64,000 nucleotides of DNA from Sipunculus nudus (Eukaryota; Annelida; Sipuncula; Golfingiida; Sipunculidae). Below are positions 26,641 to 64,000 of the stretch, piece after piece. How positions within the stretch are numbered: the stretch's first letter is position 1; each line of letters starts with the position of its first letter. Both the position numbers and the translations under genes were made by a program. The notes below the pieces were generated by a model. The model worked only from the letters and a program-made list of their open reading frames with translations, had not been told where the DNA came from and made no database searches. Where the stretch lies: positions 49,128,401-49,192,400 of the forward strand of contig CM049317.1 in assembly GCA_026874595.1 (NCBI GenBank), in the 5' to 3' direction.

Positions 26641-27290
26641 ATAAAAATTGAATGTTATTCGGCTAACTTTTCAGAGGCAAATCTATCTAATCAGTATTTT
26701 GAGAATGATCTTAAAGCACCCTATGATACCTTTATATTCTTATTTTTTCCTGATTTCAAGTTCTGGTTATTTTCATATATTTTGACAACACAGTCACATC
26801 ATAGAAAATGTTTATGGTGAAATTAATAGTATGGCCAAATACTGAAACAACCTACCAGAGTTCAGGTGCCAGTCCAGTTTAAACATCTGGGTTTAACCTG
26901 GTATTCTTAGCCCAGAGCTGATGGCACTAGTCTGAGTATATGGACACAAAACCAAACCCCACTAATGAGGTGGCAAACAATCTTCTGAAAAGGACCCTCA
27001 GTCAGTTATCAAGTAATGTCAAAATTTTCCTCATGCTTTATGAGCTACCTTTAGATAGTTCTCATGATCCCCAACTTTAGTATAAATTTTCTTAATGATT
27101 AAACAACTAGACCAACAAAAATTTCATTGGCACTCCAGAAAAATATAAATCTATATGACTTTGAAATTGTTTGGCAATTATAAATGTTCTATAATTGTCA
27201 GTGGTTACTGCAATTTATTCATGTGTTAAACTTTGTATTAAAAACATTTAAATGAAGCAATTCAATATACAAACTAGGAAACAAGGCAGC
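25215..27290. repeat. Duplicated ~1.1-kb segments carrying (TA)n
   Basis: The order of words in 25300-25860 (GGAGTGGAAATAAGG, GCAGC..TATAGGATAACA, ATCTATCTAATCAGTATT, AACAACCTACCAG, GATCCATATAC) recurs in 26285-27090. Inside the second copy a ~153-bp unit (CTGCCAAAACACTCA... to a TA tract) is itself duplicated (26276-26428 and 26430-26560). A third partial relative lies at 28560-28680. TA tracts are at 26376-26429, 26528-26562 and 26583-26635. Confidence 0.65.
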
Positions 27291-30193: not shown

Positions 30194-30532
30194 CCCTTGT
30201 TAAAATCAGGAAATAAAATGATGTAATCAAAAAGAAAGGTATTAATGCAAATATTGTTTAATTATCCTGGCTCAATATATTTGGAATTAACATGATTTTC
30301 TTTGCCTCTTCAGCCTTCGGCCTCATGTAAGCATTTAATTGTTATGAATAAACTTTTCCTGTGACCGGAGCTGTTGATTTCAATTTCATATTTTTCATGT
30401 ATATGCCAACTTTAGGGCAGTTTTAACTCCAACCATACCCTTCCACCACCCACTGATTCCTTTTTCTTGGCACTGTGAATAATAGTTCTATTGATATAGC
30501 ATGAAATATAATAATTACAGAAAATATATACT
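30194..30532 (+). repeat. 339-bp direct repeat, copy 1
   Basis: By eye identical to 32197-32535 (offset 2003 bp), from CCCTTGTTAAAATC to AAATATATACT. It breaks into the tandem array on its left. Confidence 0.85.
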
Positions 30533-32196: not shown

Positions 32197-32535
32197 CCCT
32201 TGTTAAAATCAGGAAATAAAATGATGTAATCAAAAAGAAAGGTATTAATGCAAATATTGTTTAATTATCCTGGCTCAATATATTTGGAATTAACATGATT
32301 TTCTTTGCCTCTTCAGCCTTCGGCCTCATGTAAGCATTTAATTGTTATGAATAAACTTTTCCTGTGACCGGAGCTGTTGATTTCAATTTCATATTTTTCA
32401 TGTATATGCCAACTTTAGGGCAGTTTTAACTCCAACCATACCCTTCCACCACCCACTGATTCCTTTTTCTTGGCACTGTGAATAATAGTTCTATTGATAT
32501 AGCATGAAATATAATAATTACAGAAAATATATACT
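32197..32535 (+). repeat. 339-bp direct repeat, copy 2
   Basis: Same as 30194-30532. Here it follows the natural family A end, so this copy is probably the original flank. Confidence 0.85.
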
Positions 32536-33229
32536 GAGAGACAAAGGCATTGTGACCCCCCCCCCCTCCCCCCCCATATATAATCCTTCCACCTGTGGGG
32601 AGTGGGGTTATGGAAACTGTATAACAAACATAAAATAGAAAAAAATGGTATCAGGAAACCGGAATTCCAATAATTGGACCTCATTAGACAAATGTGTAAC
32701 ATTTTGATCTGTCAACAGCTTATCAAAAAGGTAACCACTGGAAACACATGGTCATGAACGCAACATCATTGTTAGAACATTTTCTTCAATCATTTCAACC
32801 AACCATGCCCTAGATAGCCTAAAGAGCAGACTTACTATAAATGTTGATGCAATTTAGAATTTTTAATCAACTTACATTTTCAAATATAATTGATATATAC
32901 TTTACATGTATAGTTAAATTTATAATTTTTAAAAAAAATTCCCCTAAACGGAACATTAATATATTACAAAAATGAGGATATAATGCAAACATTTGTTCAG
33001 TTAATTTCTGTCTCAGTAGAATGGGAAACAAAAGATTAGCTTTTTTCTTCTATCTCTCTGTCATCATAACAAACTTATCAGAAATTATTGTATTGCTGTC
33101 AGAGAAACAACAAACAAAAGACCACCTCATGGTTTAGCCATTTATATACATAAACAGCTGAGCCCTTATGTAACCCTTCACCATCACACAACACTAGATT
33201 TTGAGTCATCTCTTCTGTATATTCACACT
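32536..33229. other. Intergenic, no gene seen
   Basis: Poly-C runs near 32556-32573, then AT-rich sequence with no coding signal. Confidence 0.5.
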
Positions 33230-33570
33230 TAGACTCACTCATTGTTTACCTCTGTAGGTCACTCACATGTCCCATTAGTAACTTCTTCTCTGAACTCGAA
33301 GTTTAAGTCTCTCAAGTTGACCTCAACCTGCTTAAAGTGATCATGGGCGATTTCAATTTTGACATTTGGAATATAATATATAAAACCAAATAGACACATT
33401 TATGTAATCTCTTTAAATGTCAACAACTAGTCAGAGAACAAAACCAGTCACCATGGAAATACCATAGATCTGGTCTTCACTAATAGTTAACATGCCTCAT
33501 TCACAACATTAGCAAACACATGGTCAGATCACAATATATTATAAGTGAAAATCCCCCTATTCTTTAATTC
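33230..33570 (+). pseudogene. Decayed LINE-type endonuclease fragment
   Basis: Three hallmarks of the apurinic-like endonuclease of non-LTR retrotransposons occur in order and at normal spacing, but in different frames: VIMGDFNFDIWN (from 33337), NTIDLVFTNS (from 33458) and WSDHNI (from 33521). They correspond to the GDFN, DLV-TN and SDH motifs. Stops and frameshifts between them show the copy is dead. No reverse transcriptase region follows. Confidence 0.75.
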
Positions 33571-34320
33571 AGATCAAACATGGCAACCTCTCATGGCTTA
33601 ATCTACCATTTGTCTCTATAGATACTTTTGGAGACATTCGAGTGATGTAAACTTGATAACTACATTGTGCAGTGGTTTTTCGTGACGTAGGGTACTACTT
33701 GGATAAAAACATACCATTTTGACACCATATTTTGATATGCCTAGAGTGACATTTTTAGGCCACTTAAAACTAATGCCCTGTCGTCAGGTGCTCTCAGGAT
33801 ACAATGATTTCTGCCGTAGCTTCTGAATTTTCCTGGTCTTTGAGGTCACCCTTTGGTAAACATTGGTTCCTGGGAAGCTGATGAAGAAGGGTTTTGAATG
33901 CACAATGCCTGGCAATGCAGTAACATTGCCCAAAATAGATCTTGACTCTTGTGCAGAGATTGCTGACATGACACTTAACTTCTCTAGCCATTTTTTAGCA
34001 TTTCAATTTGGACCTGTTTAACAAGACATTTTACAAATATTATATTCTGTCCTCAAGTGTTAAGTAAGTCCTGAAAAGCTGGTACACTGGGAATTGATTG
34101 ATCAGTTCAGTTCTGCACTACGAGGTGTTGATCTTCTTTGACAAATCTGGAAATTCTCCACATCCCTGCAGATTTAATGTGTTCACTAAAATTTGTGGGT
34201 TCAGGTGACTCGTCGCCTTTGCACATTCCACACTAAAAGCAAGTGGAAATTACCAACCATTCCATTGCAGCAACCTTAAATGGATTCACATAGCTTTTAG
34301 CAGACATGAAGGCACTCGGA
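33571..34320. other. Intergenic, no gene seen
   Basis: The overlapping minus-strand frames at 33784-33991 share the same bases and have no recognisable domain. Confidence 0.5.
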
Positions 34321-36177
34321 TTTTTAGCTCAGCTGACAGTAAGTCATCTGAGCTATAGCGATCACTCTATCGGTCGTCCATCTGTCTGCCTGTCTGTCCA
34401 GCTGTCTGTCTGTCCGTCTGTTTGTCCATTAATCTGCACAAATTGTAACGGCTGGAACTAGCATCTTGTAAATTGTCATTCTGAGAGGTCCATGATAAAT
34501 CTCCTTTGGAACCAGAAATTAGGTCACTGTAACCCATAATTTTTGAGCTATGCATGGGGCCCCATAGTACCCCCCAGAATAGTAAAATACCTATTGATCA
34601 TGAGATGTTTCATCAGTTCCTGCAGAATGGTGGCACCACCTGTATTTTTCAATTTTTTACAAATTTTTCTCTATTTTTGAGAACTTTAAAAATATGAACA
34701 TCTGTTAACAGGGCACAAATCGTAAAGACTGGACCTAGATTCTTCATTCTTGACATAGTGAGAGACCTATGAAAAGTCTCCTTGAAAACCTGAAATAAAG
34801 TCTGTTACCCATATCCCCTGAGCTGTGGGGCTCCCAATTACCCCCAGAACAATGGATAATTTGATAAAAACAAACTGCAACATCGCAATAACTACAACAC
34901 TGATGGTCATGATTTTTGGCATACATATTGATCAAGAGGTGTTTCATCAGTTTCTAGAGACTGGTGGGGCCATCAATATTTTTTTATTTTTTACGAATTG
35001 TTTTTTTTTTCCAATTTTGAGACCTTGAAAAATGTGAACATCTATTAACAGGGCACAAATCGTAAAGACTTGACCTAGAATCTTCATTCTTGACCCACAG
35101 GGAGACCCATGAAAATGGAAACCTGGAGTTAGGTCTCTGTCACCCATATCCTTTGAGCTATGGCACTCCAAAGTACAGCTCAGAATAATGGAATATTTGA
35201 TACAAAAGCTCAAGTATCTGAATAACCAATGCATAGATCACCATAATTGTATGCATGGATATTGATCATGGAGTGTTTCATCAGTTTCTGCAGACTGGTG
35301 GCACCACCTGTATTTGTTCAGGTTTTTTCCGAATTTTGTTCTCTATTTTTGAGACCTTTAAAGATAAGAACACCTGTTAACAGGGCACAAATCATAACAG
35401 ATGGACCTGGAATCTTCATTCTTGATACGCAGGTAGACCCATGAAAAGTCTACATGGAAACCTGAAATTAGGTCCCTTTTACCCTTATCCTTTAATCTGT
35501 ATGGCTCCAAAATACCCCCCCCCCCCTGAATAATGAAAAATTTGATACAAAAACTCCAGTATCTCAATTACTACAATACTGATGGTCATGAATTTTGGCA
35601 TGCTTATTGATTATGAGGTGTTCCATCAGTTTCTGCAGACTGGGTGTGCCACCTCCTTTTGTTTTAATTTTTGCGCATCTTTTTTCTCTATTTTTGTGAC
35701 TTTTAAAGATGTGGTTATCTGTCAACAGGGTACAAATCGTAACAACCGGATCTAGAATCTTCATTCTTGCCATGCAAGGAGGCCTATGAAATGTGTCTGT
35801 AGAAACCTGAAGTTAGGTCTCTGTTTCCCATATCCTACTACCTATAGGACTCCAATTTTAGTATCTCCAGAATAATTGATAATTTGATAGAAAAGCTGAA
35901 GTATCTGAACAACTAATGCAGAGATCACCATGATTCTTTGCATGGATATTGACCATTAAGTGTTTCTGCAGACTGGTGGAGCCACCTGTATTTTTTTTTA
36001 AAGTTTACGCATTTTTTCTCTTTTTTTGAGATATATAAATACAGACACACTCTTGGCCTGTTGGTTGATCTGTTTGATACTTTAGTTGAATGGGTATATA
36101 CTACCATTCAGTTGATAAAATTTCCTTTTGCAAATCTCTTTCCAGTCAGCTGTGCGTCATGACCCATGGGTCACTTA
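34321..36177 (+). mobile_element. Family A element with internal ~340-bp tandem modules
   Basis: The 5' end TTTTTAGCTCAGCTGAC, with its hairpin, is followed by a CTGT/CCGT run (34380-34425). The 3' end is CAGCTGTGCGTCATGACC, with GACCCATGGGTC at 36161-36172. Between them are one partial and four fuller modules, starting ACAGGGCACAAATC at 34708, 35048, 35380 and 35724. Each ends near a TGGTGGCACCACCTG-like palindrome. Non-coding, about 1.86 kb, both termini present. Confidence 0.8.
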
Positions 36178-36558
36178 AGCTTGTTAAGGCAACAAGCCTA
36201 CTGGACTGTCAGTGGCGGCATCTTAATCTGAGATCAGCACGTACTGTACTTGCCATGATTTGAACCGCAAAATAATATCTATTAACAACAAGTCCAGTAG
36301 GATCGAATGGTTTACAGAAAAAAATTAGTTTAACTGCACACCTATCAGATTCTTCAGGAGCTAATTAAATCTTTCTGGTTAATCAGTACTATTTTGGGTG
36401 TCCAGTGTAAACTGCTATTGTCTAAATTCTGCACTCAGGAAGGAACTATTGTATATGCTCCTTTCTCTCTACTACTGCAACTATGGATCAATCCTTCCCT
36501 CTCACTGAATAATGGCTCACTGGAATAATGTATGCAAGCATAATTTTTACTCTTGCAG
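36178..36558. other. 5' flank of the KDZ-like gene
   Basis: Unique-looking sequence between the family A element and the first coding exon. A CTCTTGCAG acceptor at 36550-36558 suggests a 5' untranslated exon lies upstream. I did not find a convincing promoter. Confidence 0.35.
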
Positions 36559-36593
36559 ATCTGACTTGTGCATAGTGTGTTCGACCCTGGAAA

Positions 36594-37505
36594 ATGCCAA
36601 AGTACCAGATCCCTGTGACATGGCTGAATTGCTTGGCCTTCGCTGCACATCATTATCCACTACATACACCGAAAAGATGGACCCGTGTACAGGAATTCTT
36701 ACAGGCACATGTGGATTTCACTGGTGATGTACCCAACAACTTATTGGTGACACTAGGATCTGGAAAGAAAACAGTTCTTTTTGAATGTCAAGCCTCCCAT
36801 TGCAGGGAGGTCTACTTAATGTTTGCCAGAGATGCCCCAGTTGTTGGCTTTGAGGAACTACAGGACTTTGCCAAGATATTCTTTAAGAAAAGTGGAATAC
36901 ACTCAGTTCACAAACCTACAGTCCTCCTACCCAAGGAAAAAGTTTGTCCATTGTGTAAGAAGGTTATTGAGATTGACTATAGACCAAGTTTTCCACAAGT
37001 GTTCACAAAAGCTGGGGTGTCAACTGCTGTGTCCTTTCATGGAAGGTGTACAGAATGCAGACTATCAAGAATGCACTCTTTTTACACACAGGACAAACAG
37101 TCAGGAGGCCCAGCCTCTAAAGTTTATCAACTACAGGATGTAGATGAATTCTTCATGGTCAGTCGCGAGACTGTTTTTGAGGTTTCCCTGTTAGCGCAAT
37201 TCCATGCAGCACTAACAGTCAGTGGCTGTTCTTTTGGATCCACTGTTGACGCTTACAATGCTGAACATGCATTATGTCCTCCTAATACATGCATGCCTGG
37301 TCACTCTTGCACCCAACTTTCCAGCCAGGTGTCTGTCTTATTGCATAGGGACCGCATGGAGGATGCCTGGTTCATCTGGAGACTCCTTCTGCAAAAGGGA
37401 TATCAGGACTCACTTGAGGTCTCACAGCAACAACATGGTCATCGTCCTGACCTGGAAGTCCTCTGCAAACAAGCATATGATGATCTTCTCTTGAAAAAAA
37501 ATCCT
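36594..37505 (+). CDS. KDZ-like gene, exon 1 (CxC5-like region)
   Basis: A 912-bp exon, exactly 304 codons, ending KKNP before GTAAGT. It holds the N-terminal helical domain, the C118-P-L-C and C152-x2-C155 pairs and the conserved FFMVSRETVFEVSLLAQFH segment that typifies CxC5 proteins. An upstream in-frame stop (36573) supports this start. Confidence 0.85.
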
Positions 37506-40500
37506 GTAAGTTTTTATGCATTTTTTTTCACATATAAGCATTTTTTTTCACACCAGTGATGTAAATTGATCCCAAACCTTGCTGTGGCTGACCATCACAA
37601 AGTCATATATAGGACAGTATCATATCTTTGGCTGTAATCATGGCATCTGCTGGATCAATTTTCTGGACAACTTTTTTGGTCCAGTAAGATGACAGATTAT
37701 TATTTTGGTATATATCACAGGGTTTCCACCAGCATTAAAGTTTGGCAAGTCAGCAGACATTTCCCCTGAGTAGGCACCTAAAAAAGTACCCCTAAAGTTG
37801 CTGTATGTTAGCATTATATGAACTTGCTGGTCACATACAGATGGTATTCAGTTCATTAGCACACTGACAGTCTCTTTTTCACTTAAGGACGTCTTAAATG
37901 TGACAGCCAATTGTAGCTCTATATGGCCATCAAGGGTCCCTGTCACTTACCTGCTCTAAACCAAACAGGCCACAGTCACTGAACTGTTGTCTTTTAATTA
38001 GCCTTCCTAACGGCAGGTCTTCAGAGCTATATCAATCACTCAAAGTCCATTGTCCAAGTGTCTGATGGTATGTCTGTCTGTCAACCTGTCCCAAAACTCA
38101 ACTGCTTGATCAAGAATCTTCTAGCCTGACATCCAAGAAGATAAATATCCATGTATTCATGAATCTTTGTGTCGTATATCTATATCCTCCTGGCTAGAAG
38201 TACCTCCCCCCCCCCTGAATAAATGATAATTAAATACAAAAGGTCCAGTATCTGATCAGTGACTGCCATGATTTTTTGTGACAATTGATCAGTGAGTGTT
38301 TCATCAATTCATGTGCACTGCTGGTGCTCCTTGCAATTGTCTATCGTTTTCCTAAAATTTTCTCAATTTTTTTAAATTTCATGGATACAGTCATTTGTTA
38401 ATAAGGCTCAAATTGTAATCATTGGACAAAGAATTATTTGACTTAATTGACGTTGCAGCTATGGGGCTTTTAAAGTACCCATCAGAATAAATAAAATTTG
38501 ATTCAAAATCCCCATTTTTTGATAAATAATGCATCAATTGCAATAAATACTCCCATTTATATTGACCATAATTAATTTTGTCCATTCAGGTATAATGGTG
38601 TCACCACCTGCTTTTCTTCAATTTTTTAGCTCAGCTGACTATAAGTCATCTGAGCTATAGTCGTGGTCCATTGTCTGTTGTCCGTCCGTCTTGCCGTCCG
38701 TCTGTCTGTCCGTCTGTCTGTCCGTAGATGTGGCACGTTTTGAAATCCGTAAGACCTAGGAATCCAAAATTCTGCATAATGTTAGATTTCCCCAAGATCT
38801 CCTACCAAGCTGAAAACTGGGTCTTTGCGACTTTGTTCCTTTGAGAAATTAAGGAAAAACCTCATTTTTTTTATTAAAAACCTATTTTCACACTTCAGGA
38901 CTGCCTAATATCAAAACCACTGATCTGTTTTTACTCATATTTACTATAAATATTCCCCTATATAGTTTCTATGTACATGATAGAAATTGTGTCTGTATTA
39001 TATAATTTAAAAAAGTTAAGGGCCCAAACATAATGCATTTTGTAAAAAATCAGGAAAGATATTTGATCACTTAACACAAAACATGTTAAAGCTATGGCCT
39101 TTTTTCCAGTAATATAACTTACACTAATCAACATTAAATTGTATACCCAAAATTAGAACAAAATCTTTTAAATTTTTTTAAATATTGACAAAAATAAAAA
39201 ATTGGTACCTTATATTTTGCCCAACTTTGAGCATGGCACTTTTTTTACTGTAAGTACTGTGGATTTAATTTTCACAGCATGTTTTTGTTAGCATTTTGTC
39301 TGTTTACACCAAAATTTGAGACCAGTTGATCAAAAAGTGTAGATTTTATTCAAGTTTTCAAGCACCATGTATCATATTGTTTACATTAAGCTAGTGTTAA
39401 GCAGTTTGCAAGAGCTCAGCTCCCAAGCTTCAGTTTTCAGTTCCTAAAATTTGGCATACAATAAGATGTCTCCAAAATCCCCTACCATGCCAAGATTTGG
39501 TCACTAGGACTTAATACCTTTGAGATATGAATGAAAATCTTCATTTTTCCATTAAAAACCCATTGTTACCATTCAAGACTGCCTAATATCAAAACCATTG
39601 ATCTGACTTTAATCATATATTATACACATATTTTTCTACACATTCTCTATGCACATGCCAGAAATGATGTCAGTATTGCGTAATTGTTTTAAGTTATTGG
39701 CCCAAACATAATGCACTTTGTAAAAGAATCAAGAAATATATTTATTCCCTTAACAAGAGGATTGCTGAAGCTAGAGATTTTTTGTCAGGGATGTAACATT
39801 GTTTAATCAAGATTCAATTGAATACCCAAAATTAGTTCTGAATTTTTCAAATTTTATAAGTTATTAGTATAAATATAAAATTAGTACCTTAAATTTTGCC
39901 AAACTTAGGCCAATTGTTTCCTGTGAGCACTGTTGATATAATTTTCATATTATGCACACATAAGGATTTCAGCTTTTGGTTTAGAAAGCTGATAGAAATT
40001 GGCCAAAAATTGTAGCTTTTATTAATGTTTTTATGAGACCATGTCAGAGATTAGCTCTCCCCAGCGACTCTTGAGTAACCTGTATGTTGACCTAGTTGAC
40101 CTTTCATCAAATTATGCATGCTTTAGGCCTGGCATACACGGGGGCAGCCAGGCAGCTTATGGCCAGCCACAGTTGATCCAGGTGTCCAACCAAACTTATC
40201 TAGTACTTTTAATTAACAACATAACAATAAACAATAAATAAATAAATTTTGTTTTTTTTATAACAAATTAAATAAAAATAGAAAAGAAAAGGAACCTGTT
40301 AGTTGATGAGTAACAGAAAATTAACTTGCAGTTACTGAGGATGTAAGAATATTGTATGGATGGATAGAATGTCAATGTCAGTGTTATTCCAAATAACACC
40401 ATGCAGTCACCTATGGTCTTTTTCAGTTAAATTTTAATGATAAAAAAAAATATATAACATATTATTCATTACTAATCATTAGGGATCATATGAAGGAAAT

Positions 40501-42685
40501 TAATGATAGACAAAGATGCAGTTGATAATATTAATCTGGATTCCTACTAAGTCTAGTGTGTAGATTGATGTGAATTAGTTCAAAATGAATATATTACATT
40601 TATTTTTTTTAATATGAATAAAAGCCATAAAAACAGTTACTTATGATCATTATTTAAATATGTGATTTTTGTAAATTTTGGATTCTCAACATCATTCTTT
40701 AGTGAAAACTGAATAAATACCAGACAAGTTGCGAATACTTTGCAAATGTATTTGATTACGAATATGAATATGCACTCCACTATAAAATTTCTTGCATAAG
40801 AATGTGAATTCAGGTAAAAATGAAAGTATAAGAATACCAGTGCATACACTTTCAGAATGTATTCATGAAAACATTCATGAATATATTCTTTGTTATTATT
40901 TAATAATCAATTAAGTTGTATTTTATTTTAAAAAATCATACAATTTATTATTTTAATAAAAATTATATTTGGGACAATTTGTAATTATTTTTAATAAATA
41001 GCTAAACCTATATATAATATGTTCTGCTTATAAGTTATATGGCCAAGTCAAAATCTGTGTGACAATAGCACTCCATTTGTTAATAAAATAAATGAAATCA
41101 ATCCTCTTCCCTGTCTCCAAAGATACTATCAAAATCATACATAAGCTAAACACCAGCAACTCATTATACAGCTTATATTTATTTCCACACAAACAAGCAT
41201 TTGCCTCATTTCTAAATCATATTTTTTAACATATATAACAGCTGAGCGCCGTGACCCATGGGTCCCTTGTTTAACAATTTTTAGCTTTTTTTGAGACTGT
41301 CAAATGACAGCAATCATGCCAGTGTCTCACCTAAGGTTTCACCTGGTGACCTGAAACCAGGTTTGTTTTATGAAACTTCACTTGCAGAAGACAGGTGGTG
41401 CCAGCTGGTTGTTTTTCTCTCATCAGATCACAGCAATATCAGTGTTTGAAGTGATATTATCTTTTATGCATTTTTGATCATAATTAGTTTATTCAGTCTT
41501 TCAAGACTGGTGGCACCACTTATTCTTATCAAACCTGTTAGCTCATGAGGTGGTGCAGATTCATAATGTCAACAATTATATGAACAGGAAAGGTTATAGT
41601 ATATATCATGAAGACTGATTTGGCGCAGATAAGATTTATATAATCAGTCATTTATATTAAAATATTATTAAACTTTTCATTATGCATACATTTAATAAAT
41701 ATGAAGGAAATTATGATAAATAAAGGCACAATTCAAAATTGGGAAATCTCAATCAAGTATCTTAATAGATGTTTATTGATTTGCACATTTAAAAGATATA
41801 TCTTTTGGGAAAAAATAAATATCCATTTGTTACATAATGTAGTGTTATCTGATTGTGAAATAATGTAATATTCTGTAAATATAAATCAATATATCACTTG
41901 TGAACTATACCAATTGGTGGGCTGATCATTGAGTTTTATCGAAAGTCAGCCGCTTTGCAGCCACTTTCAAGCGCTCAATTATCAAAGGCAACTATCGATT
42001 ACATCATAATCATGATTTTTTTCCCCAGAATTCCTTCATGTTATAGGCAAAAATTATTCTTCCTTCATTTTACAACATTCCGCACTTCATATAATGATTC
42101 TGTGTTCCCAAATAATTTCCACATGTACCTGAGTGAGACACGGTAGATGCATCATTATGATCAAACTGATATCTGGCAATGAAAATCAAACAACAGTGAC
42201 CGGATTTTTCAAACAAAAAACAAACAGAAATAATTACCCAGAAGCCTTTATGCAGTTAACATTTTACAAATAAATCATACATGATTTATTTTTACACAAA
42301 AAAATATGTAGGCCTGTGACATTTTTCTGGCGGGCTTGAGAAACCAGTATGCATGTCAGCAGTCATCAGAATTGTTATAAAATTAAGGTCCTTGCTGATG
42401 TTGAAGTTAAAATAATAGGCGCGAGTATTCATGAGGGCCAACAAGTAGATGTCCTTGATTATGGTTTATTTCTTGATTATAACAATAAATTACAATGAAA
42501 CTTTGAATAGCATATTCTCAGTAATACAAGGAAAATATAAAAAAAAGCAAAAACTTTTTTCTCTAGGTAGAGTTAATGAGACACACAATCGCAATCTCGC
42601 CTAGGCAAGATCACAATTGCAATCTTGTCTAGGGGAATTTAAAATCCACCTGGATGTCAATCTCTTCTCTGACACACACACACAT

Positions 42686-42746
<61 letters not shown>

Positions 42747-45700
42747 TATTTATATAATCTTTATCACTTAGACTTATATCTGCTGAGACATGGGGCTTAA
42801 AAGTACCCCCCCCCCCCATAAAAAAAATACAAAGCCACAAATTCTTGATTATTATTCACTGAATTGTCATCAGTCTGACATTGAATATTGACCATGACTA
42901 GTTTTGTCAGTTTCCAAAAAGTGGTTGCGCCTCCTGTATTATTCAAGTTGTGAGCTTATGGGATGGGGTGGCATCGTCCGGCGTGTGTCGTCTGGCATCT
43001 GTCCTCTGTCGTCTGTACATTAACCCATACTATCTTGAAAGTGACATGAGTTATCTTTACAAACTTTTATGCCAAAAAGTTTAAACATCTAAAAACTCAA
43101 TCAAATTTTTTTTTTTGTGCCTAACTGCATTTTCTTAGATTTTCTAGGGAAAAGGCTAAAAAAAGCTTTAAAAATCTTCTCCTGCAAAACTGCTCAACCA
43201 AATTGTCCAATATTTTACAGAAATGATTCCTGAAACACTCCCTCAAATTTGTTCAACTGGTTTAAGTTTGATGATTTTTAGCCGAGTTTGATATTTGTCA
43301 TCTGTCCAAAAAAGCATACTAAAATTATACAATCCCAGAAATTTGTTTCAGCTATCATCACCAAATTTTATGCCAATGTTGGTCACATGAGTCATATCTG
43401 AAATTGAGGTACTGGTGGCACCACCTGCCTGGCCTTTTTTGTACGGGGGTCATCAATGCCTGTATCATACTGATGGCTACAATAAACTTCTCTGAAACCA
43501 TATGGCCAAATGGTTTAATATCGCACAGAAATGATCCTAGGGTAATGCTTTTTGAAGTTAGTTCAAATGGTCTCAGTTCAGTGTCTTTTGGCTTAGTTAA
43601 TGGAAGCTGAATTTAGTCATATGCCATAACAGTCCTTTTTAGCTCAGTGGCTACAAAGTTCTTCTTCTCAAAAAGCACTAGGCAAAAATTTTAAATCTCA
43701 CACATTAATTATCCTTAGATGTTGACAATTCAAGTTTGTTAAAATGGTTTTGGTACAGTGATTTTTGGCATTGTTATAGGAATCTTTACTTAGCCATTTG
43801 GCTGAAGTTTCCAATATGAGTTATAAATATGCACAACATGTTTTGACTGATGCCACTGAAGCCAATTATATTAGTATTATACGAGAATAATCCCCTGAAT
43901 AATTCTTATAATATTTGTCTTTTATGGTTCCAAAGAATGAATTGAGTCATTTTACCATATGTACCTGTGTGAAGCAGATACTTCTAGCCAGGCACCAGTT
44001 TACCAGCATCAGTTACATCATGCCTCTAGACATTTTGATTTCCGGTTATCTGTGGTTAATATTGACAAAAATGTTTTTATAAGCTTCTATAAAATGAAGA
44101 TTTATAATTTAAGTTATTCCTAATGCCAGGCAGTGTTTACAATCACAGGTATACAGCTGTCTGCGGGTATATAAAGATGACTCTACATGGATAATAAATA
44201 TTTGGTATCCATGCTCAACTTAATTCAAGATTTTGCCATCAGTGATATGTATCTGTATTATAATTTTGCATTCAATATGCAACTGTAGTAATTTCTAGCA
44301 AACCTGTCAGCTTATGGCATGGTACCACGTTGTGTGTCCATGAGTTGTCTGTACATTAAACTATACTATCTCAAAAATGGCAGGAGCTAGCATCACCAAA
44401 CTCTATGCAAAAAAACAGTCATCTACAAATTATATCCTATTTTGTATATTTTTGGACCCTGTGCTATGACTTCATTTTTATTGGGAAAAGCTTTTAAAGC
44501 TTCTTCTCCATAACTGTCAATCCAGACAAATTGTCCAATATTTCACAGTAATGATCACTTGAACAATCATTGTCGAGTTTGTTGGAATGGTTCCAGTTTG
44601 TGAAAATGGCTGAGCTACAAGAAGATGAACTTATTCATCTTTCAAAAAAACATACTAAAATATCTGTCCCTGAAACAGTTGAAGCTATCATCACCAATTT
44701 TTATGCAAATGTTTGTCACATATGTGATTAGTCGTATCTGAAACTGCATGAAGTGTGGTGCCACCTGCATTGATCTGTTTTTTACCAGCAAAAATGGACT
44801 CTTCTAGTTAAAACATGGTTTAATGATGATACTGTCCAGCTGATTAATTTTAACTCAATTTACAAGAATTATTCTATGGTAGAGTTCTGCCAGTTTTATT
44901 AGACACACTACCCATATGCATATGGTATTGAGGCTTCGGATAGACTGCTATCAAAACAGAAATCACCTACATCTACTGGTCAGTTAGTCACCCCCACAGC
45001 CTCTGCACAACTTTTGTTTAGCAGTATGATGTTAGAACACCCAAGTTCACCTTCACATTTATTATATGGACCTTTCTTATCTTTCCAGTGGGCACTCCAT
45101 AGATGTTCCATCAAAGGATGTCAGGAGGGCTACCTGACCATTGATGGCAATGCCAAAATCCGCAGAGCCGTATGTGCCGCACCAAGGACAGCTGTCAAAA
45201 TGGGACCAACTATGCCAAAAGTGTTTCAGTCTTGTCCAAATTCACCACTCATGGGAGGCAAAAACCGAGCACCATCAAAGTATTGCAAAGAGCATCAAGA
45301 TCTCATTCAAGGTAAACAAATCATGACTTCCTGTCAAGGCTGCTTTATTTCTTACAATGATTGTACATCTCTCATCCCAACTGCCATAGTATGAGGGTAT
45401 ATCCAATTTTTGCATGACCTTGCTTCCTCTGATTAATACCTTATTCTTCACCAGCCTCTTTTGTTAACTAAACACACTTTTATACATCCTTGGGTATCCC
45501 AACATGGCCTCTAAGGTTGTGACACTTTGGAACAAACTTCTGAAACTTTGCATACAAGCAACTGGCCCCATGTTATCCTATCCAAACTGTAATAAGGTCT
45601 TGCTACATCATTTCACTGAGAACTATGGATGTATCCAAACTCTTTTCTACAAAAAGTTCTACAATTCAGGACTATCCACTTTAAAAACCTCACACCTCAT

Positions 45701-53377: not shown

Positions 53378-54272
53378 ATATTTATATTATTTATCAGGTA
53401 GGATTGAGACAGAGGATATAACGAGATGGGATATAAATAGGGTTTATACCTATCAACCAGGGTTTTTAATAAGCTCTTGATAAAAGCCTTTCCTGCTTTC
53501 CTCAGTGTCTGTCCTTCCTACATGAATAGAACCTTTGCCTGTTCTTACTGTAGATTGTCCATCGACTGTTCTGTCTGTGACTCATGTCTAACCTCATTAC
53601 TCTTTGTTCCAAACAGGTACCTCATATCCACTAGACAAAGTACTCACAATAGCCTTGTGGGACATGAAATGCAAGACACCTCTTCATGCAGAGTCTACCA
53701 AAGAGCTGCCACTACCTGATGATTCATCCACAATGACAGGATGCAAAGAAGAACAAAAACTTACCAGGTTCCATGAAACGACAGCAGGTGTTTTAGCCTT
53801 TGTGAAGCCATGTGGGGTAATAGTCAGATTACTGGAAATGTACACATGTGAGTCCAGTAGTCAGGTATTCAGTGCCTTATTGGCACTGTACGAGGAGTAT
53901 CCTGATGTCTGCAGATACATAGGCTATGACAGAGCTTGTGAACTGCATCCCTTTCTATGTAGGCTAGCAGACAAAGGAAATCCAGGTGCACGTTTGCTGC
54001 TGGAGAACTGTGATTTCTTAGTGGATATCTTTCATGTGACCAAACATGTTAAGGAGACATGCATGCCTCTTGAAGGTTCAAAGTGCCGCTACCACCCCCA
54101 GTTAGACAGGTTTGCAGCAATTCATGGAACCAATACAGAAAGTGCGGAGCAAGCATTCAGCTGGCTAAACCGGTTTAAATTAGTGGTCCGTAAAATGACT
54201 GTGCATAAATTCAAATGGATGCTTCAGGAAGCAGTGCATGCCAGAAATACCCATGTGTCAACTAAACGGTGA
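36594..54272 (+). CDS. KDZ transposase-like protein, CxC5 and CxC6 clusters, four exons
   Basis: Exons 36594-37505, 45089-45311, 47955-48095 and 53617-54272 join through GT-AG introns with matching phases (0, 1, 1) into 643 residues. Residues 118-155 hold CPLC and CTEC, a CxC5-like zinc cluster. Residues 305-374 hold CSIKGC, a lone C, C and CKEH, a CxC6-like cluster. The RNase H-fold core can be followed: TIDGN (D323), a TAGVLAFVKPCG block, GYDRACELHP (D530), a H-K-H/C/C/H cluster, and NTESAEQAFSWLNRF (E600). These match the D-D-E pattern of KDZ transposases, which cut and paste DNA. The ATG at 36594 has A at -3 and an in-frame TAG 21 bases upstream. Large introns full of other repeats and no visible terminal repeats suggest a resident, perhaps domesticated, gene rather than a fresh insertion. 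Confidence 0.85.
38623..41271 (+). mobile_element. Family A element, full length, in intron 1
   Basis: The hairpin AGCTCAGCTGACT (38628-38640), ATA loop, AGTCATCTGAGCT (38644-38656) opens the element. CCGT/CTGT repeats follow to 38725. The end is CAGCTGAGCGCCGTGACCC, with GACCCATGGGTC at 41253-41264 and CCTTGTTT after it. At 2.65 kb it is the longest copy here, and it is the best reference for the truncated one at 56180-58207. Confidence 0.8.
42673..42750. repeat. (CA)n(TA)n compound microsatellite
   Basis: A CA run passes into TA, inside intron 1 of the KDZ-like gene. Confidence 0.9.
42950..44800 (+). repeat. Two family B copies in intron 1
   Basis: Starts GTGAGCTTATGGGATGG (42951) and GTCAGCTTATGGCATGG (44306) are followed by shared words (TACATTAA.CTATACTATCT, AACTG.TC.A.CC, CAAATTGTCCAATATTT, GGTGGCACCACC or GTGGTGCCACC). 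About 1.35 kb apart in the same direction. Confidence 0.6.
45089..45311 (+). CDS. KDZ-like gene, exon 2 (CxC6-like region)
   Basis: A 223-bp exon after TTTCCAG, with donor GTAAAC, phase 0 in and 1 out. It encodes WALHRCSIKGCQEGYLTIDG onward. The cysteines and CKEH form the zinc cluster, and IDGN may supply the first catalytic aspartate. Confidence 0.85.
45312..47954 (+). other. Intron 2 of the KDZ-like gene
   Basis: 2.6 kb of AT-rich sequence with a (TTTA)n patch near 47018-47040 and a C run at 47261-47277. No other exon is needed by phase. Confidence 0.65.
47390..47465 (-). repeat. Possible tRNA-like head of a SINE
   Basis: On the minus strand TGGCTCAGG (A-box-like) is followed about 45 bases later by GATTCGAATTT (B-box-like). 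This is the arrangement of a degenerate polymerase III promoter. No cloverleaf was worked out and no 3' tail is clear. Confidence 0.25.
47955..48095 (+). CDS. KDZ-like gene, exon 3
   Basis: A 141-bp exon after TTTCTCCAG, with donor GTAATC, phase 1 on both sides. It encodes a Lys/Asn-rich linker (DTDKLLEKNKSGSKN...) ahead of the catalytic core. Length and phase are the main evidence. Confidence 0.75.
50481..50531. repeat. (TA)n microsatellite
   Basis: Pure TA run in intron 3 of the KDZ-like gene, at the end of a family A relative. Confidence 0.9.
53281..53390. repeat. (TC)n and interrupted (TA)n
   Basis: CT repeats followed by TA blocks broken by TTTTTATAAAAA. It lies about 230 bp before the last KDZ-like exon. 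Confidence 0.85.
53617..54272 (+). CDS. KDZ-like gene, exon 4 (catalytic core and stop)
   Basis: A 656-bp exon after CCAAACAG, entering in phase 1, TGA at 54270. It carries GCKEEQKLTRFHETTAGVLA, GYDRACELHPFLCRL, DIFHVTKHVKETC and GTNTESAEQAFSWLNRFK, then a helical tail ending STKR. It is the most conserved part of the protein and an unbroken frame. Confidence 0.9.
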
Positions 54273-56179: not shown

Positions 56180-58207
56180 TTTTTAGCTCAGCTGACTATA
56201 AGTCATCTGAGCTATAGTCGTGGTCCATTGTCCGTCATCCGTATGACCGTCTGTCTGTCCGTCCGTCTGTCCGAATGTCTGTCTCTAAGACTGGCACATT
56301 TCGACACCATTGGACCTACTAATCTGAAATTCACCTACAGTTAGATGTCCCCAAAATCTTCTACCAAGCCGAAAATTGGGTCAATAGGACTTCATTCCTT
56401 CGAGATATTAAGGAAAACCTCAATTTTTATTAGAAATCTATTTTCACACTTCAGGACTGCCTAATATCAAAACCACTGATCTGGATTTTCTCATATTTAC
56501 CATAAATATTCCTATATATAGTTCCTATGTACATGCCAGAAATCAAGTCAGTATTATTTAATTTAAAAAAGTTATGGGCCCAAACATAATGGACTTTGTA
56601 AAAAAATCAGGAAAGATATTTGGTCACTTAAGACCAAAAGTGTTAAAGGAAGGGACTTTTTTTCAGTAATACAACTTTCATTGATCAAAATTTAATTGTA
56701 TACCAAAAATAAGTTCAAAATCTGTTAAATTTTTTTTAATTTTGGCAAACATAAAATTGGTACCTTAAATTTTGCCCAAGTTTGGCCAAGGCACTTTTTT
56801 CCCTGTAAGTACTGTGGAGTAAATTTTCACAGCATGTTTATGTTAGCATTTTGTGTGTTAACACCAAAAATTTGAAACCAGTTGATCAAAAACTGTAGAT
56901 TTTATTCAAGTTTTGGGCCCAAACATAATGCACTTTTAAAAAATCAAGAAATATATTTACTCCCTTAACAAGAGGATTGCTGAAGCTAGAGATTTCTTGT
57001 CAGGGATGTAACATTATTTAATCAAGATTCAATTGAATACCAAAAACTAGTTCCGAATTTTTCAAATTTTATAAGTTATTAGTATTAATATAAAATTAAT
57101 ACCTTACATTTTGCCCAACTTTGACCATGGCACGTTTGTTTCCTGAGAGCACTGTTGATATAATTTTCATATCATGGACACATAAGGATTTCATCTTTGT
57201 AGTTTAAAAAGCTGAAAGAAATTGGCCAAATATTGTAGCTTTTATTAATGTTTTTATGAGACCATGTCAGACCCGGACTGAATCCAGCCCCTTTCAGTCA
57301 CCTGTATGTTGACCTTGTTGACCTTTCATCAGATCATGCATGCTTGAGCGAAGCATACTCTGGGGCAGCCAGGCAGCTAATACCCAGCCACAGTTGCTCC
57401 AGGTGTCCAACCCAACTCATCTAGCAGTTCTTTTAAAATATACATAACAATAAACAATAAATTAATAATTAGTGGATGAGTAAGAGAAAATTAACTTGCA
57501 GTTACTGATGATGTAAGAATCTTGTATGGATGGATAGAATGGAATGTTATTCCAAATAACACCATGAAGTCACCTATGGTATTTGTCAGTTATTTTAATG
57601 ATAAAAAAAATAAATCATATTATTCATTACTAATCAGTAGGGATCATATGAAGGAAATTAATGATAGACAAAGATGCAGTTGATAATATTAATCTAGATT
57701 TCTACAGTGTTTAGTGTGTAGATTGATGTGAAAGTAGTCCAAAGTAAATATATCACATTTATTTTTTTTAATATAAATAAAAGCCATAAAACCAGGTACT
57801 TATGATTTTTATTTAAATTTGTGAATTTTGTATATTCTGGATTCACAACATCATTGTCTGGCTAAAACTGAATAAATACTTGACATGGTGCGAATGCTTT
57901 GCAAATGTATTTGAATACGAAGTTGAATATGTACTGCATATGAAAAATTTTATTGCATAAGAATGTGAATTCAGGTAAAAATGAAAGTATTTGAAAACCA
58001 GTCCAGATACTTTCAAAATGTATTCATGAATGCATTCATGAATATATTCTATCATATGATTTTCTTATTATTTTTTTAAATAAAAATTATATTGGCACTA
58101 TATTTGTTATTAAATTTTAATAAATAGTTAAACTCTTATTATATGTGATGCTTATAAGTTATATGGCCAAGTCAAAATATGTGTGACAATAGCACTCCAT
58201 TTGTTAA
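56180..58207 (+). mobile_element. Family A element cut off by the satellite array
   Basis: It starts TTTTTAGCTCAGCTGAC with the same hairpin (56185-56213) and follows the 38623 copy closely to CACTCCATTTGTTAA, where satellite begins. It lacks about 340 bp found at about 39360-39700 in that copy and all of the 3' end (about 170 bp including the palindrome). Confidence 0.8.
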
Positions 58208-61200
58208 TTTGCGGAATTCCTAGATGAGCACCCCTCTGTGTATAACCGTCCAGGGCTCACCCTACCGGTGGCTTCAGGGAACTTCAAAGTTGCTAAATTG
58301 CCGGCAATTTGCGGAATTGCTACATGGGGACCCCTCTGTGTATAACCGTTGTGAGCTCACCCTACCGGTGGATTCAGGGAACTACAAAGTTGCTTAATTG
58401 CCGGCAATTTACGGAATTGCTAGATGGGGACCCCTCTGTGTATAACCGCCGGGGGCTTAACCTAACGGAGGAATCAGGGAACTACAAAGTTGCTAAATTG
58501 CCAGCAATTTGCGGATTTGCTAGATGGGGACCCCTCTGTGTATAACCGCCGGGGGCTCATCCTAACGGAGGAAAAAGGGAACTACAAAGTTGCTTAATTG
58601 CCGGCAATTTGCGGAATTGCTACATGGGGACCCCTCTGAGTATAACCGTAGTGGGCTCACCCTACCGGAGGATTCAGGGAACTACAAAGTTGCTAAATTG
58701 CCGGCAATTTGCGGAATTGCTACATGGGGACCCCTCATTGTAAAACCTTGTGGGCTCACCCTACCGGTGGATTCAGGGAACTACAAAGTTGCTAAATTGC
58801 CGGCAATTTGCGGAATTGCTACATGGGGTCCGCCCAGTGTATGGCCGTCGGCGGCTCACCCTACCGGTGGATTCAGGGAACTACAAAGTTGCTAAATTGC
58901 CAGCAATTTGCGGAATTGCTAGATGAGCACCCCTCTGTGTGTAACCATCCAGGGCTCACCCTACCGGTGGCTTCAGGGAACTACAAAGTTGCTAAATTGC
59001 CGGCAATTTGCGGAATTGCTACATGGGGACCCCTCTGTGTATAACCGTTGTGAGCTCACCCTACCGGTGGATTCAGGGAACTACAAAGTTGCTTAATTGC
59101 CGGCAATTTGCGGATTTGCTAGATGGGGACCCCTCTGTGTATAACCGTGGTGGGCTCACCCTATCGGAGGAATCAGGGAACTACAAAGTTGCTAAATTGC
59201 CAGCAATTTGCGGAATTGCTAGATAAGCACCCCTAAGTGTATAACCGTCCAGGGCTCACCCTACCGGTGGATTCAGGGAACTACAAAGTTGCTAAATTGC
59301 CGGCAATTTGCGGAATTGCTACATGGGGACCCCTCTGTGTATAACCGTTGTGAGCTCACCCTACCGGTGGATTCAGGGAACTACAAAGTTGCTTAATTGC
59401 CGGCAATTTACGGAATTGCTAGATGGGGACCCCTCTGTGTATAACCGCCGGGGGCTTAACCTAACGGAGGAATCAGGGAACTACAAAGTTGCTAAATTGC
59501 CAGCAATTTGCGGATTTGCTAGATGGGGACCCCTCTGTGTATAACCGCCGGGGGCTCATCCTAACGGAGGAAAAAGGGAACTACAAAGTTGCTTAATTGC
59601 CGGCAATTTGCGGAATTGCTACATGGGGACCCCTCTGAGTATAACCGTAGTGGGCTCACCCTACCGGAGGATTCAGGGAACTACAAAGTTGCTAAATTGC
59701 CGGCAATTTGCGGAATTGCTACATGGGGACCCCTCATTGTAAAACCTTGTGGGCTCACCCTACCGGTGGATTCAGGGAACTACAAAGTTGCTAAATTGCC
59801 GGCAATTTGCGGAATTGCTACATGGGGTCCGCCCAGTGTATGGCCGTCGGCGGCTCACCCTACCGGTGGATTCAGGGAACTACAAAGTTGCTAAATTGCC
59901 AGCAATTTGCGGAATTGCTAGATGAGCACCCCTCTGTGTGTAACCATCCAGGGCTCACCCTACCGGTGGCTTCAGGGAACTACAAAGTTGCTAAATTGCC
60001 GGCAATTTGCGGAATTGCTACATGGGGACCCCTCTGTGTATAACCGTTGTGAGCTCACCCTACCGGTGGATTCAGGGAACTACAAAGTTGCTTAATTGCC
60101 GGCAATTTGCGGATTTGCTAGATGGGGACCCCTCTGTGTATAACCGTGGTGGGCTCACCCTATCGGAGGAATCAGGGAACTACAAAGTTGCTAAATTGCC
60201 AGCAATTTGCGGAATTGCTAGATAAGCACCCCTAAGTGTATAACCGTCCAGGGCTCACCCTACCGGTGGATTCAGGGAACTACAAAGTTGCTAAATTGCC
60301 GGCAATTTGCGGAATTGCTACATGGGGACCCCTCTGTGTATAACCGTTGTGAGCTCACCCTACCGGTGGATTCAGGGAACTACAAAGTTGCTAAATTGCC
60401 AGCAATTTGCGGAATAGCTAGATGGGGACCCCTCTGTGTATAACCGCCGGGGGCTCAAACTAACGGAGGAAAAAGGGAACTACAAAGTTGCTTAATTGCC
60501 GGCAATTTGCGGAACTGCTACATGGGGACCCCTCTGTGTATAACCGTAGTGGGCTCACCCTACCGGAGGATTCAGGGAACTACAAAGTTGCTAAATTGCC
60601 CGCAATTTGCGGAATTGCTACATGGGGACCCCTCATTGTAAAACCTTGTGGGCTCACCCTACCGGTGGATTCAGGGAACTACAAAGTTGCTAAATTGCCG
60701 GCAATTTGCGGAATTGCTAAATGGGGTCCGCCCAGTGTATGGCCGTCGGCGGCTCACCCTACCGGTGGATTCAGGGAACTACAAAGTTGCTAAATTGCCA
60801 GCAATTTGCGGAATTGCTAGATGAGCACCCCTCTGTGTATAACCATCCAGGGCTCACCCTACCGGTGGCTTCAGGGAACTACAAAGTTGCTAAATTGCCG
60901 GCAATTTGCGGAATTGCTACATGGGGACCCCTCTGTGTATAACCGTTGTGAGCTCACCCTACCGGTGGATTCAGGGAACTACAAAGTTGCTTAATTGCCG
61001 GCAATTTGCGGAATTGCTAGATGGGGACCCCTCTGTGTATAACCGTGGTGGGCTCACCCTATCGGAGGAATCAGGGAACTACAAAGTTGCTAAATTGCCA
61101 GCAATTTGCGGAATTGCTAGATAAGCACCCCTAAGTGTATAACCGTCCAGGGCTCACCCTACCGGTGGATTCAGGGAACTACAAAGTTGCTTAATTGCCG

Positions 61201-64000
61201 GCAATTTGCGGAATTGCTACATGGGGACCCCTCTGTGTATAACCGTAGTGGGCTCACCCTACCGGAGGATTCAGGGAACTACAAAGTTGCTAAATTGCCG
61301 GCAATTTGCGGAATTGCTACATGGGGACCCCTCATTGTAAAACCTTGTGGGCTCACCCTACCGGTGGATTCAGGGAACTACAAAGTTGCTAAATTGCCAG
61401 CAATTTGCGGAATTGCTACATGGGGTCCGCCCAGTGTATGGCCGTCGGCGGCTCACCCTACCGGTGGATTCAAGGAACTACAAAGTTGCTAAATTGCCAG
61501 CAATTTGCGGAATTGCTAAATGAGCACCCCTCTGTGTATAACCATCCAGGGCTCACCCTACCGGTGGCTTCAGGGAACTACAAAGTTGTTAAATTGCCGG
61601 CAATTTGCGGAATTGCTACATGGGGACCCCTCTGTGTATAACCGTTGTGAGCTCACCCTACCGGTGGATTCAGGGAACTACAAAGTTGCTTAATTGCCGG
61701 CAATTTGCGGAATTGCTAGATGGGGACCCCTCTGTGTATAACCATCCAGGGCTCACCCTACCGGTGGCTTCAGGGAACTACAAAGTTGCTTAATTGCCGG
61801 CAATTTGCGGAATTGCTACATGGGGACCCCTATGTGTATAACCGTTGTGAGCTCACCCTACCGGTGGATTCAGGGAACTACAAAGTTGCTAAATTGCCGG
61901 CAATTTGCGGAATTGCTAGATGGGGACCCCTCTGTGTATAACCGTGGTGGGCTCACCCTATCGGAGGAATCAGGGAACTACAAAGTTGCTAAATTGCCAG
62001 CAATTTGCGGAATTGCAAGATAAGCACCCCTAAGTGTATAACCGTCCAGGGCTCACCCTACCGGTGGATTCAGGGAACTACAAAGTTGCTTAATTGCCGG
62101 CAATTTGCGGAATTGCTAGATTGGGACCCCTCTGTGTATAACCGTGGTGGGCTCACCCTATCGGAGGAATCAGGGAGCTACAAAGTTGCTAAATTGCCAG
62201 CAATTTGCGGAATTGCTAGATAAGCACCCCTAAGTGTATAACCGTCCAGGGCTCACCCTACCGGTGGATTCAGGGAACTACAAAGTTGCTTAATTGCCGG
62301 CAATTTGCGGAATTGCTACATGGGGACCCCTCTGTGTATAACCGTAGTGGGCTCACCCTACCGGAGGATTCAGGGAACTACAAAGTTGCTAAATTGCCGG
62401 CAATTTGCGGAATTGCTACATGGGGACCCCTTAGTGTATAACCTTGTGGGCTCACCCTACCGGTGGATTCAGGGAACTACAAAGTTGCTAAATTGCCAGC
62501 AATTTGCGGAATTGCTACATGGGGTCCGCCCAGTGTATGGCCGTCGGCGGCTCACCCGACGGTGGATTCAGGGAACTACAAAGTTGCTAAATTGCCAGCA
62601 ATTTGCGGAATTGCTAGAAGAGCACCCCTCTGTGTATAACCATCCAGGGCACACCCTACCGGTGGCTTCAGGGAACTACAAAGTTGCTAAATTGCCGGCA
62701 ATTTGCGGAATTGCTACATGGGGACCCCTCTGTGTATAACCGTTGTGAGCTCACCCCACCGGTGGATTCAGGGAACTACAAAGTTACTTAATTGCCGGCA
62801 ATTTGCGGAATTGCTAGATGGGGACCCCTCTGTGTATAAACGTGGTGGGCTCACCCTATCGGAGGAATCAGGGAACTACAAAGTTGCTAAATTGCCAGCA
62901 ATTTGCGGAATTGCTAGATAAGCACCCCTAAGTGTATAACCGTCCAGGGCTCACCCTACCGGTGGATTCAGGGAACTACAAAGTTGCTTAATTGCCGGCA
63001 ATTTGCGGAATTGCTACATGGGGACCCCTCTGTGTATAACCGTAGTGGGCTCACCCTACCGGAGGATTCAGGGAACTACAAAGTTGCTAAATTGCCGGCA
63101 ATTTGCGGAATTGCTACATGGGGACCCCTCAGTGTATAACCTTGTGGGGTCACCCTACCGGTGGATTCAGGGAACTACAAAGTTGCTAAATTGCCAGCAA
63201 TTTGCGGAATTGCTAGATGGGGACCCCTCTGTGTATAACCGCCGGGGGCTCAACCTAACGGAGGAAAAAGGGAACTACAAAGTTGCTAAATTGCCGGCAA
63301 TTTGCGAAATTGCTACATGGGGACCCTTCTGTGTATAACCGTCGGGGGCTCACCCTACCGGAGGTTCCTGGGAACTACAAAGTTGCTAAATTGCCGGCAA
63401 TTTGCGGAATTGCTACATGGGGACCCCTCTGTGTATAACCGTTGTGAGCTCACCCTACCGGTGGATTCAGGGAACTACAAAGTTGCTAAATTGCCGGCAA
63501 TTTGCGGAATTGCTAGATGGGGACCCCTCTGGGTATAACCGTAGTGGGCTCACCTTATCGGAGGAATCAGGGAACTACAAAGTTGCTAAATTGCCAGCAA
63601 TTTGCGGAATTGCTAGATGGGGACCCCTCTGTGTATAACCGCCGGGGGCTCAACCTAACGGAGGAAAAAGGGAACTACAAAGTTGCTAAATTGCCGGCAA
63701 TTTGCGAAATTGCTACATGGGGACCCTTCTGTGTATAACCGTCGGGGGCTCACCCTACCGGAGGTTCCTGGGAACTACAAAGTTGCTAAATTGCCAGCAA
63801 TTTGCGGATTTGCAACATGGGGACCCCTCTGTGTATAACCGTGTCGGCTCACCCTACCCAAGCTTTCAGGGAACTACAAAGTTGCTAAATTGCCAGCATT
63901 TTGCGGAATTGCTACATAGGGACCCCTCAGTGTATGGCCGTCGGCGGCTCACCCTACCGGTGGCTTCAGGGAACTACAAAGTTGCTAAATTGCCGGCAAT
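58208..64000. repeat. 100-bp satellite in higher-order repeats
   Basis: About 58 head-to-tail units of 99-100 bp, typically TTTGCGGAATTGCTACATGG at one end and AAATTGCCGGCAA at the other, richer in G+C and CpG than the rest of the window. Unit variants recur in a fixed order: a ten-unit block at 58308-59306 is repeated at 59307-60305 (period 999 bp, one unit being 99 bp), then shorter nine- and seven-unit versions follow. The array is open at the window end. Short frames in it come from the 100-bp period being read in all three phases. Confidence 0.95.

Follow-up and report, generated by a model that had tools for sequence, protein, structure and literature searches.

In alpha satellite, with its 171-bp monomer and its CENP-B box (box core TTCGNNNNANNCGGG), diverged monomers are ordered into nearly identical multimers, the higher-order repeats (HORs). 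We describe a satellite array with HORs at the right end of a 64,000-nucleotide stretch of the Sipunculus nudus genome, called the window here (contig CM049317.1, hereafter C12; C12:49128401–49192400 in a 1.43-Gb assembly of 153 contigs). Judged from the sequence, this array is very probably not centromeric and most likely represents the right subterminal satellite of a giant foldback-like DNA transposon of the KDZ (Kyakuja-Dileera-Zisupton) kind. As in alpha satellite HORs, diverged monomers stand in near-identical multimers; unlike alpha satellite, the unit is 100 bp long, the array has 60 units, it is dispersed, it lies inside a probable transposon and the window holds no exact box core. 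A bivalve satellite, SSUsat, is reported without HORs in the text cited (PMC5537241).

Tandem repeats inside terminal inverted repeats (TIRs) are known from the foldback transposon Tetris of Drosophila virilis, which has TIRs of up to 1,735 bp with 220-bp repeats and is assigned to Mutator, no transposase having been found according to the cited part of the report (PMC4079207). The elements described here resemble Tetris in this respect and differ from that account of it in reaching 66–72 kb, in their unequal arrays, one of them with HORs, and in the KDZ frame inside. Giant KDZ elements of 30.3 kb in Ectocarpus and 31.7 kb in Chlamydomonas have been described (PMC12477816). KDZ elements make 8-bp target-site duplications (TSDs), and those of Cryptococcus KDZ2 and KDZ3 are 4–8 bp long (PMC12730594, PMC12810828). 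With the giant elements and Cryptococcus KDZ1–3, as presented in the cited sections, our elements share a KDZ domain, probably together with a CxC zinc cluster, TIRs and, in some copies, apparent 8-bp TSDs, and with KDZ elements also large size, nested insertions and accessory genes (PMC12477816, PMC12810828). Unlike those KDZ elements, as far as the same sections describe them, ours have more than twice the length (against 30.3 and 31.7 kb), satellite arrays at inverted termini and a DUF3987 companion frame. Teratorn is a larger element of another kind (41–182 kb; PMC6431247). Helentron elements carry satellite arrays in Crassostrea gigas (PMC7492417, PMC8268682), and in both cases mobile elements disperse the arrays; unlike that Helitron/Helentron class, as characterised there, the present elements have TIR ends, and TSDs in some copies. 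Among the matches listed in the literature on KDZ, foldback/satellite, giant-transposon, TIR-HOR and bivalve or mollusc HOR topics there is no foldback KDZ element, which is no proof of absence, and a literature search for KDZ in molluscs found no paper.

Termini and copies of the element

The full array comprises 60 units (5,961 bp) and ends at C12:49192566, equivalent to window position 64166 and thus 166 bp beyond the window. The earlier note on this stretch compared the array with a centromere and named an array ending shortly after the window as something that would speak against its view; this is what we find. The right terminus of the element follows at C12:49192706. The left terminus is at C12:49126110, 2,291 bp to the left of the window, and about 12 units of the same monomer, in inverted orientation, come after it. 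The whole window therefore appears to lie inside one 66.6-kb element, of which only the outer 2.3 kb on the left and 306 bp on the right fall outside it:

1–64000, + strand: interior of one probable giant transposon, C12:49126110–49192706, 66,597 bp, window coordinates −2290 to 64306 (termini, inverted minor array, second giant matching at both ends)

Inside the window, a search for TIRs over 28000–58300 gave 215 inverted pairs, the 25 longest of which are AT-rich simple repeats.

Related arrays are widespread: a 201-bp array probe has at least 344 matches in the genome, on at least 12 large contigs. When 12 array loci were compared, 11 had a common outer flank, a conserved domain of about 140–167 bp, C7 being the only locus without it. 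Homology of this right domain stops at one point within a few bases, at ...CCGACAGCTCCCCACCTCCCTC, with C11 and C12:40.64 Mb stopping a few bases short of that point. At the opposite end, C7, C11, C13 and C2a have a short inverted array and then a second terminal domain, whose end reads CATATAGGTGGGGAACCGTTGGTTT inward. Both ends share an imperfect terminal inverted repeat of about 20 bp, AGGTGGGGARCYGTYGGTTT, read by eye. Searched genome-wide with up to 2 mismatches, the terminus patterns have 54 left and 44 right matches, and reversed controls have 0. A correctly oriented right end lies within 120 kb of 16 of the 54 left ends (flipping the strands gives 1 pair), and the 16 paired elements measure 1.5 to 71.9 kb. 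Among the right ends, 14 of 44 carry AAAACCGACAGTTCCCCGCCTCCCTC and constitute a separate subfamily, one of them adjoining KDZ frames at C12:7.13–7.15 Mb.

The position of the termini relative to the arrays is regular. A terminus is found within 1.5 kb on the outer side of 18 of 22 array clusters, the chance of this being about 1e-4 for each, and termini near arrays are on the outer side only, bar one inner-side match in a 1.5-kb C8 element whose ends both lie close. The exceptions among the 22 clusters are C11 and C12:40.64 Mb, in which the terminus is visible in altered form, the truncated C7, and C2:12.88 Mb. Inverted tandem-repeat termini, the mark of a foldback element, are present in C11, C7, C13, C2a and the window element, which are those mapped at both ends. 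As far as its letters tell, the element would work in the manner of a foldback transposon whose termini are satellite arrays, and its membership of the KDZ superfamily is most likely.

A second giant copy, 71,940 bp long and with the same ends, is located on another contig, at C17:52827242–52899181. At the right end this copy matches window 48237 onwards, with a single 60-bp gap outside the array, and its interior meets the array at the same junction. In the roughly 10 kb of interior adjoining the array on its left, 103 of 9,879 aligned bases differ between the two giants (1.04%). The C17 array has 97 units as compared to 60, and matches within the arrays are 88–93% and out of register. The left 5.8 kb of C17 match at 97.7–98.5%, aside from a 1.6-kb insertion in the window copy, and a 2.5-kb sample from its middle joins the equivalents of window 26822–27570 and 42729–44485, 15.2 kb being missing. 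The flanks outside the termini differ between the giants (25 bp compared on each side). Two stretches of the window copy are defined by copy comparison:

1315–2922, no strand: 1.6-kb insertion, absent from the C17 giant and from C2a
27570–42729, no strand: 15.2-kb stretch that includes the CxC5 frame and is missing from the corresponding position in the C17 giant

Shorter copies of 1.5–22.7 kb have the termini of the giants, and several have part of the interior as well. C2a (22 kb) is collinear with the giant at 1.3–2.0, 3.1–3.6 and 5.2–8.0 kb; collinearity resumes at 58.2 kb (241 bp, 77%) and then continues through the array. Further left interior of the giant is held by C2a, C9 and C2b (C9, C16 and C2b compared in part). 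A piece from the end of the open reading frame at 5512–6393 (61–68 residues) is kept in 8 of 14 short paired elements, a pattern that internal deletions would produce. Much of the interior of C11, C7, C13, C2a and C9, among the stretches listed, is filled by a second satellite; its unit of about 77 bp holds the telomere-like palindrome GGGTTAGGGTAACCC. The C11 interior also has a 436-aa frame (11226–12533 of the oriented stretch) that by eye resembles a Gypsy-type reverse transcriptase and is probably a nested insertion.

Seventeen elements with both ends, the 16 pairs and C11 with its right boundary set by hand, were compared for TSDs. An 8-bp duplication matching at 8/8 is present in four of them: C16 (offset 0), C13 and C11 (offset 1) and C2a (offset 8). 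C12b has 7/8 at offset 5, and the best of 272 mismatched control pairs reaches 6/8. By eye, two C3 copies have GTGGTCAG plus three additional left-hand bases, and C8 has seven bases; the C3 copies share their flanks and are therefore not independent. The right flanks of C2a and C12b carry the displaced duplication with extra bases resembling its reverse complement (GACTATG/CATAGTC; CACAAA/TTTTGTG), which looks as if a hairpin had opened off-centre.

Transposase-like and accessory frames

Four open reading frames stand out in the window:

53592–54272, + strand: probable exon, its open reading frame bearing a KDZ transposase domain, PF18758 (Pfam E 1.2e-7, score 32.1 bits, cut-off 26.6)
36576–37559, + strand: frame that is probably the N-terminal part of the transposase gene and bears the CxC5 zinc-cluster domain PF18718 (Pfam E 2.9e-7)
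9961–10506, − strand: frame with DUF3987 domain PF13148, accessory gene (Pfam E 3.4e-11)
5512–6393, − strand: 293-aa frame with no match in Pfam that probably continues the DUF3987 gene downstream (Pfam scan, homologue searches)

The KDZ domain scores above the Pfam cut-off in the window, and the frame is inside both giants. Over 222 codons it is the same in the window copy and C17; outside them, C17 has D for H at residue 2 and is two codons shorter, ending in TAA. KDZ matches of at least 85% identity are the window copy on C12, C17, two at C12:7.13–7.15 Mb and one on C5 (90% over 80 residues); all are in or beside the ends of this family, and more distant matches are elsewhere. Of 10 KDZ matches, five are on the inner side of a terminus, no more than 80 kb from it and oriented as expected (two of these share one place); no match is in the opposite orientation or on an outer side. 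The 55 loci matching the 5512–6393 frame are distributed in a similar way: 19 are oriented as expected within 80 kb inside a terminus, none has the reverse orientation there and 2 are on the outer side.

The CxC5 frame lies 16 kb from the KDZ frame in the window, and at C9 and C10 a CxC5 frame is found about 10 kb upstream of a KDZ frame on the same strand. The order of DUF3987-side frames (antisense), CxC5 and KDZ is found again at C10:72.10–72.12 Mb. None of four proteins matched NCBIfam, and one of two matched PHROGs, a weak helicase match of the DUF3987 frame (E 0.018). At C8:71155121–71164290 a match to the DUF3987 frame is repeated about 25 times, every ~380 bp, apparently a coding fragment turned satellite.

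Higher-order pattern and its probable local origin

Tandem Repeats Finder places an array of period 100, with 58.0 copies and 88% matches, at 58206–64000; the earlier note was right that an array is there, and its start is 58206, not 58208. Cutting at a conserved anchor gives 58 units in the window, every one 99 or 100 bp long, and clustering at 3.5% gives 17 monomer types. Their order along the array is A [BCDEFGHBIJ][BCDEFGHBIJ][BKEFGHBIJ][EFGHBLBIJIJ][EMGHBIJ] EMDNBODNPQ:

58206–64000 (runs on to 64166), + strand: 58 of the 60 units of the right subterminal satellite array (Tandem Repeats Finder, anchor cut, array end)
58306–59304, + strand: 10-unit HOR block 1, 999 bp (anchor cut, exact identity, type order)
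59305–60303, + strand: 10-unit HOR block 2, identical to block 1 (exact identity)
60304–61202, + strand: 9-unit derivative block (anchor cut, type order)
61203–62301, + strand: 11-unit derivative block with internal unit duplications (anchor cut, type order)
62302–62999, + strand: 7-unit block, the basic multimer (anchor cut, type order, 7-mer identity)
63000–64000, + strand: more irregular distal units beside the right terminal domain of the transposon (anchor cut, type order)

Units 2–11 and 12–21 have zero differences over 999 bp, in line with the earlier note, which saw none, and the exact match at lag 999 starts at 58285 and is 1,109 bp long. The blocks after this pair have 9, then 11, then 7 units; the same note had listed the 9- and 7-unit derivatives but not the 11-unit one. 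Unit order is far from random, with 25 repeated 4-mers, whereas 2,000 shuffles average 0.41 and never exceed 5 (coarser 11-type labels). The 7-mer EFGHBIJ is the basic multimer, and the 10-mer is EFGHBIJ plus BCD. Monomers inside one 10-mer are on average 88.8% identical (0.82–1.0), and the five corresponding 7-mers are 97.9–100% identical to one another. Types thus recur in a fixed order and multimers are far more alike than their constituent monomers, which bears out the organisation into HORs.

A 46-bp core of the monomer, which holds the 16-bp perfect palindrome AAATTGCCGGCAATTT, is unusually constant in the window (0 of 5,000 column permutations as extreme; 38 unique monomers). Over 458 unique monomers from 13 arrays the constancy is weaker (4 of 5,000; 604 of 626 segments used, those 95–103 bp long). 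The exact core motif has 0 matches in viral_contigs and genome_contigs. A coding role for the array was considered and rejected: 56 stop-to-stop frames of at least 40 aa occur over 57500–64000, those in the array reach 165 aa at most and do not run through the 100-bp unit. For an RNA role, the window has zero Rfam matches at gathering score and zero tRNAs.

The window has two more tandem arrays, at 28938–30195 (339-bp units) and 34592–35836 (345-bp units), of about 3.7 copies each. The sequence left of the array, 56180–58205, has a second copy about 17 kb upstream, at 38623–41081, which is 82–85% alike and stops at the array junction. The sequence after the 39688–41081 homologue has no match to the element's right flank, and therefore no simple empty site is seen there.

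The window 7- and 10-unit multimers are found in neither C13 nor C17, the two nearest related arrays, and were therefore formed locally and recently. Only short unit runs are common to the window and C17 (ABHI, HIE and the distal BHDJKL, in coarser clustering labels). The nearest relative of a window monomer lies in its own array in 43 of 59 cases in comparison with C17 (11 ties) and in 54 of 59 in comparison with 11 other arrays; similar closeness to the own array is observed in C11 (76/94), C7 (32/50) and C12:40.64 Mb (32/41). Five young copies, C2a, C9, C16, C12b and C12c, have inner flanks 98.5–99.7% alike and arrays of 32–49 segmented units that differ by whole unit blocks, FGHI being multiplied in C2a and C9. 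It seems that the higher-order pattern arose inside this single copy. The recent homogenisation proposed in the earlier note agrees with the 999-bp identity and with most window monomers being closest to their own array, and it is local and very recent.

Unequal exchange within the copy fits as the source of the identical blocks, and replication slippage or assembly error is possible. If the duplication were as old as the split of the giants (1.04% divergence), the probability of zero differences in 1,109 bp would be about 1e-5, and the blocks, if real, are therefore much younger. Exact identity over 1,109 bp is also what an assembly duplication would give. We consider such an artefact, which would be compatible with the transposon, improbable since similar block duplications occur on other contigs: C17 has a 451-bp exact run at lag 1,899, and FGHI repeats are found in C2a and C9.

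Weighing the explanations

Several findings weigh against a giant foldback-like KDZ transposon with HORs of local origin. The best KDZ Pfam matches of the genome lie elsewhere, the three of this family ranking 7–9 of 9. Within an element the two arrays differ greatly in length: the five elements with both ends mapped have 7–13 units in one and 51–95 in the other. Neither giant copy has a TSD among the 17 elements compared, 12 of the 17 stay below 7/8, and the only clean duplication at offset 0 is that of C16. The middle of C17 is covered by one 2.5-kb sample only. C17 is without the CxC5 stretch at the matching place and without any CxC5 match, and both of its DUF3987-side frames contain stops, so that any autonomy is putative. 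C13, C11 and C7 match the giant in arrays and termini and, in the interior, by one 210-bp match only; they therefore need not be simple deletions. Finally, homogenisation within the own array is not general (C13 13/57, C2b 6/25, C3 1/8, five young copies 0–4).

The missing TSD at the window copy would be natural if each terminus beside the window belonged to a short element of its own, with host DNA making up most of the intervening 66.6 kb. This is very unlikely, as C17 has both termini within different flanks and matches the window copy in stretches at the left, in the middle and at the right, and C2a joins the same left interior to the same right end. There is an equally slight chance that a dispersed satellite was inserted by chance into, or captured by, unrelated transposons. 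Mobile elements do carry satellite-like arrays in the Pacific oyster, according to the cited parts of those reports (PMC7492417, PMC8268682), and C13, C11 and C7 have little interior in common with the giant, but the orientation of the arrays is fixed relative to the terminus, which is on the outer side in 18 of 22 clusters, and the arrays at the two ends are inverted relative to each other. A satellite of the centromere or its surroundings, organised into HORs like alpha satellite as in the analogy of the earlier note, has the true HOR pattern with 97.9–100% identity between corresponding 7-mers in its favour and is nevertheless hardly credible for a ~6-kb array (5,961 bp) with dispersed relatives on at least 12 large contigs and transposon termini at 18 of 22 clusters, the 0 exact CENP-B-box cores in the window being a weak argument since 0.02 are expected by chance.

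From left to right, the giant foldback-like KDZ transposon would consist of a terminus, a short array in inverted orientation, a long interior that holds transposase-like and accessory frames, a long array in direct orientation and a second terminus. A KDZ transposase from full-length copies may recognise the termini and move giants and deleted derivatives, with the arrays supplying extra putative transposase-binding sites. Unequal exchange or replication slippage in each inserted copy would expand, contract and homogenise the arrays, and this turnover within each copy would lead to private HORs, the two identical 999-bp blocks being the latest such event in the window copy.

Tentatively, and with less than even confidence, we suggest that the HOR arrays are working parts of KDZ elements, namely putative transposase-binding clusters on the 46-bp core through which the enzyme would move 66–72 kb in an animal, and that each insertion evolves its own HOR. 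The core motif is matched at best at 14 of 21 positions in two left terminal domains, where 5 and 10 of 500 simple shuffles are as good, and in two right terminal domains there is nothing (345 and 396 of 500 shuffles as good); there, support for the binding-site idea is weak. If it is true that each insertion evolves its own HOR, HORs can form without a centromere and without selection acting on chromosome segregation.

This locus ties together three subjects: HOR satellites, foldback transposons and giant KDZ elements. A 64-kb window can sit wholly inside one mobile element and this remains unseen from within. The five near-identical copies with different arrays would represent snapshots of the birth of HORs outside any centromere.

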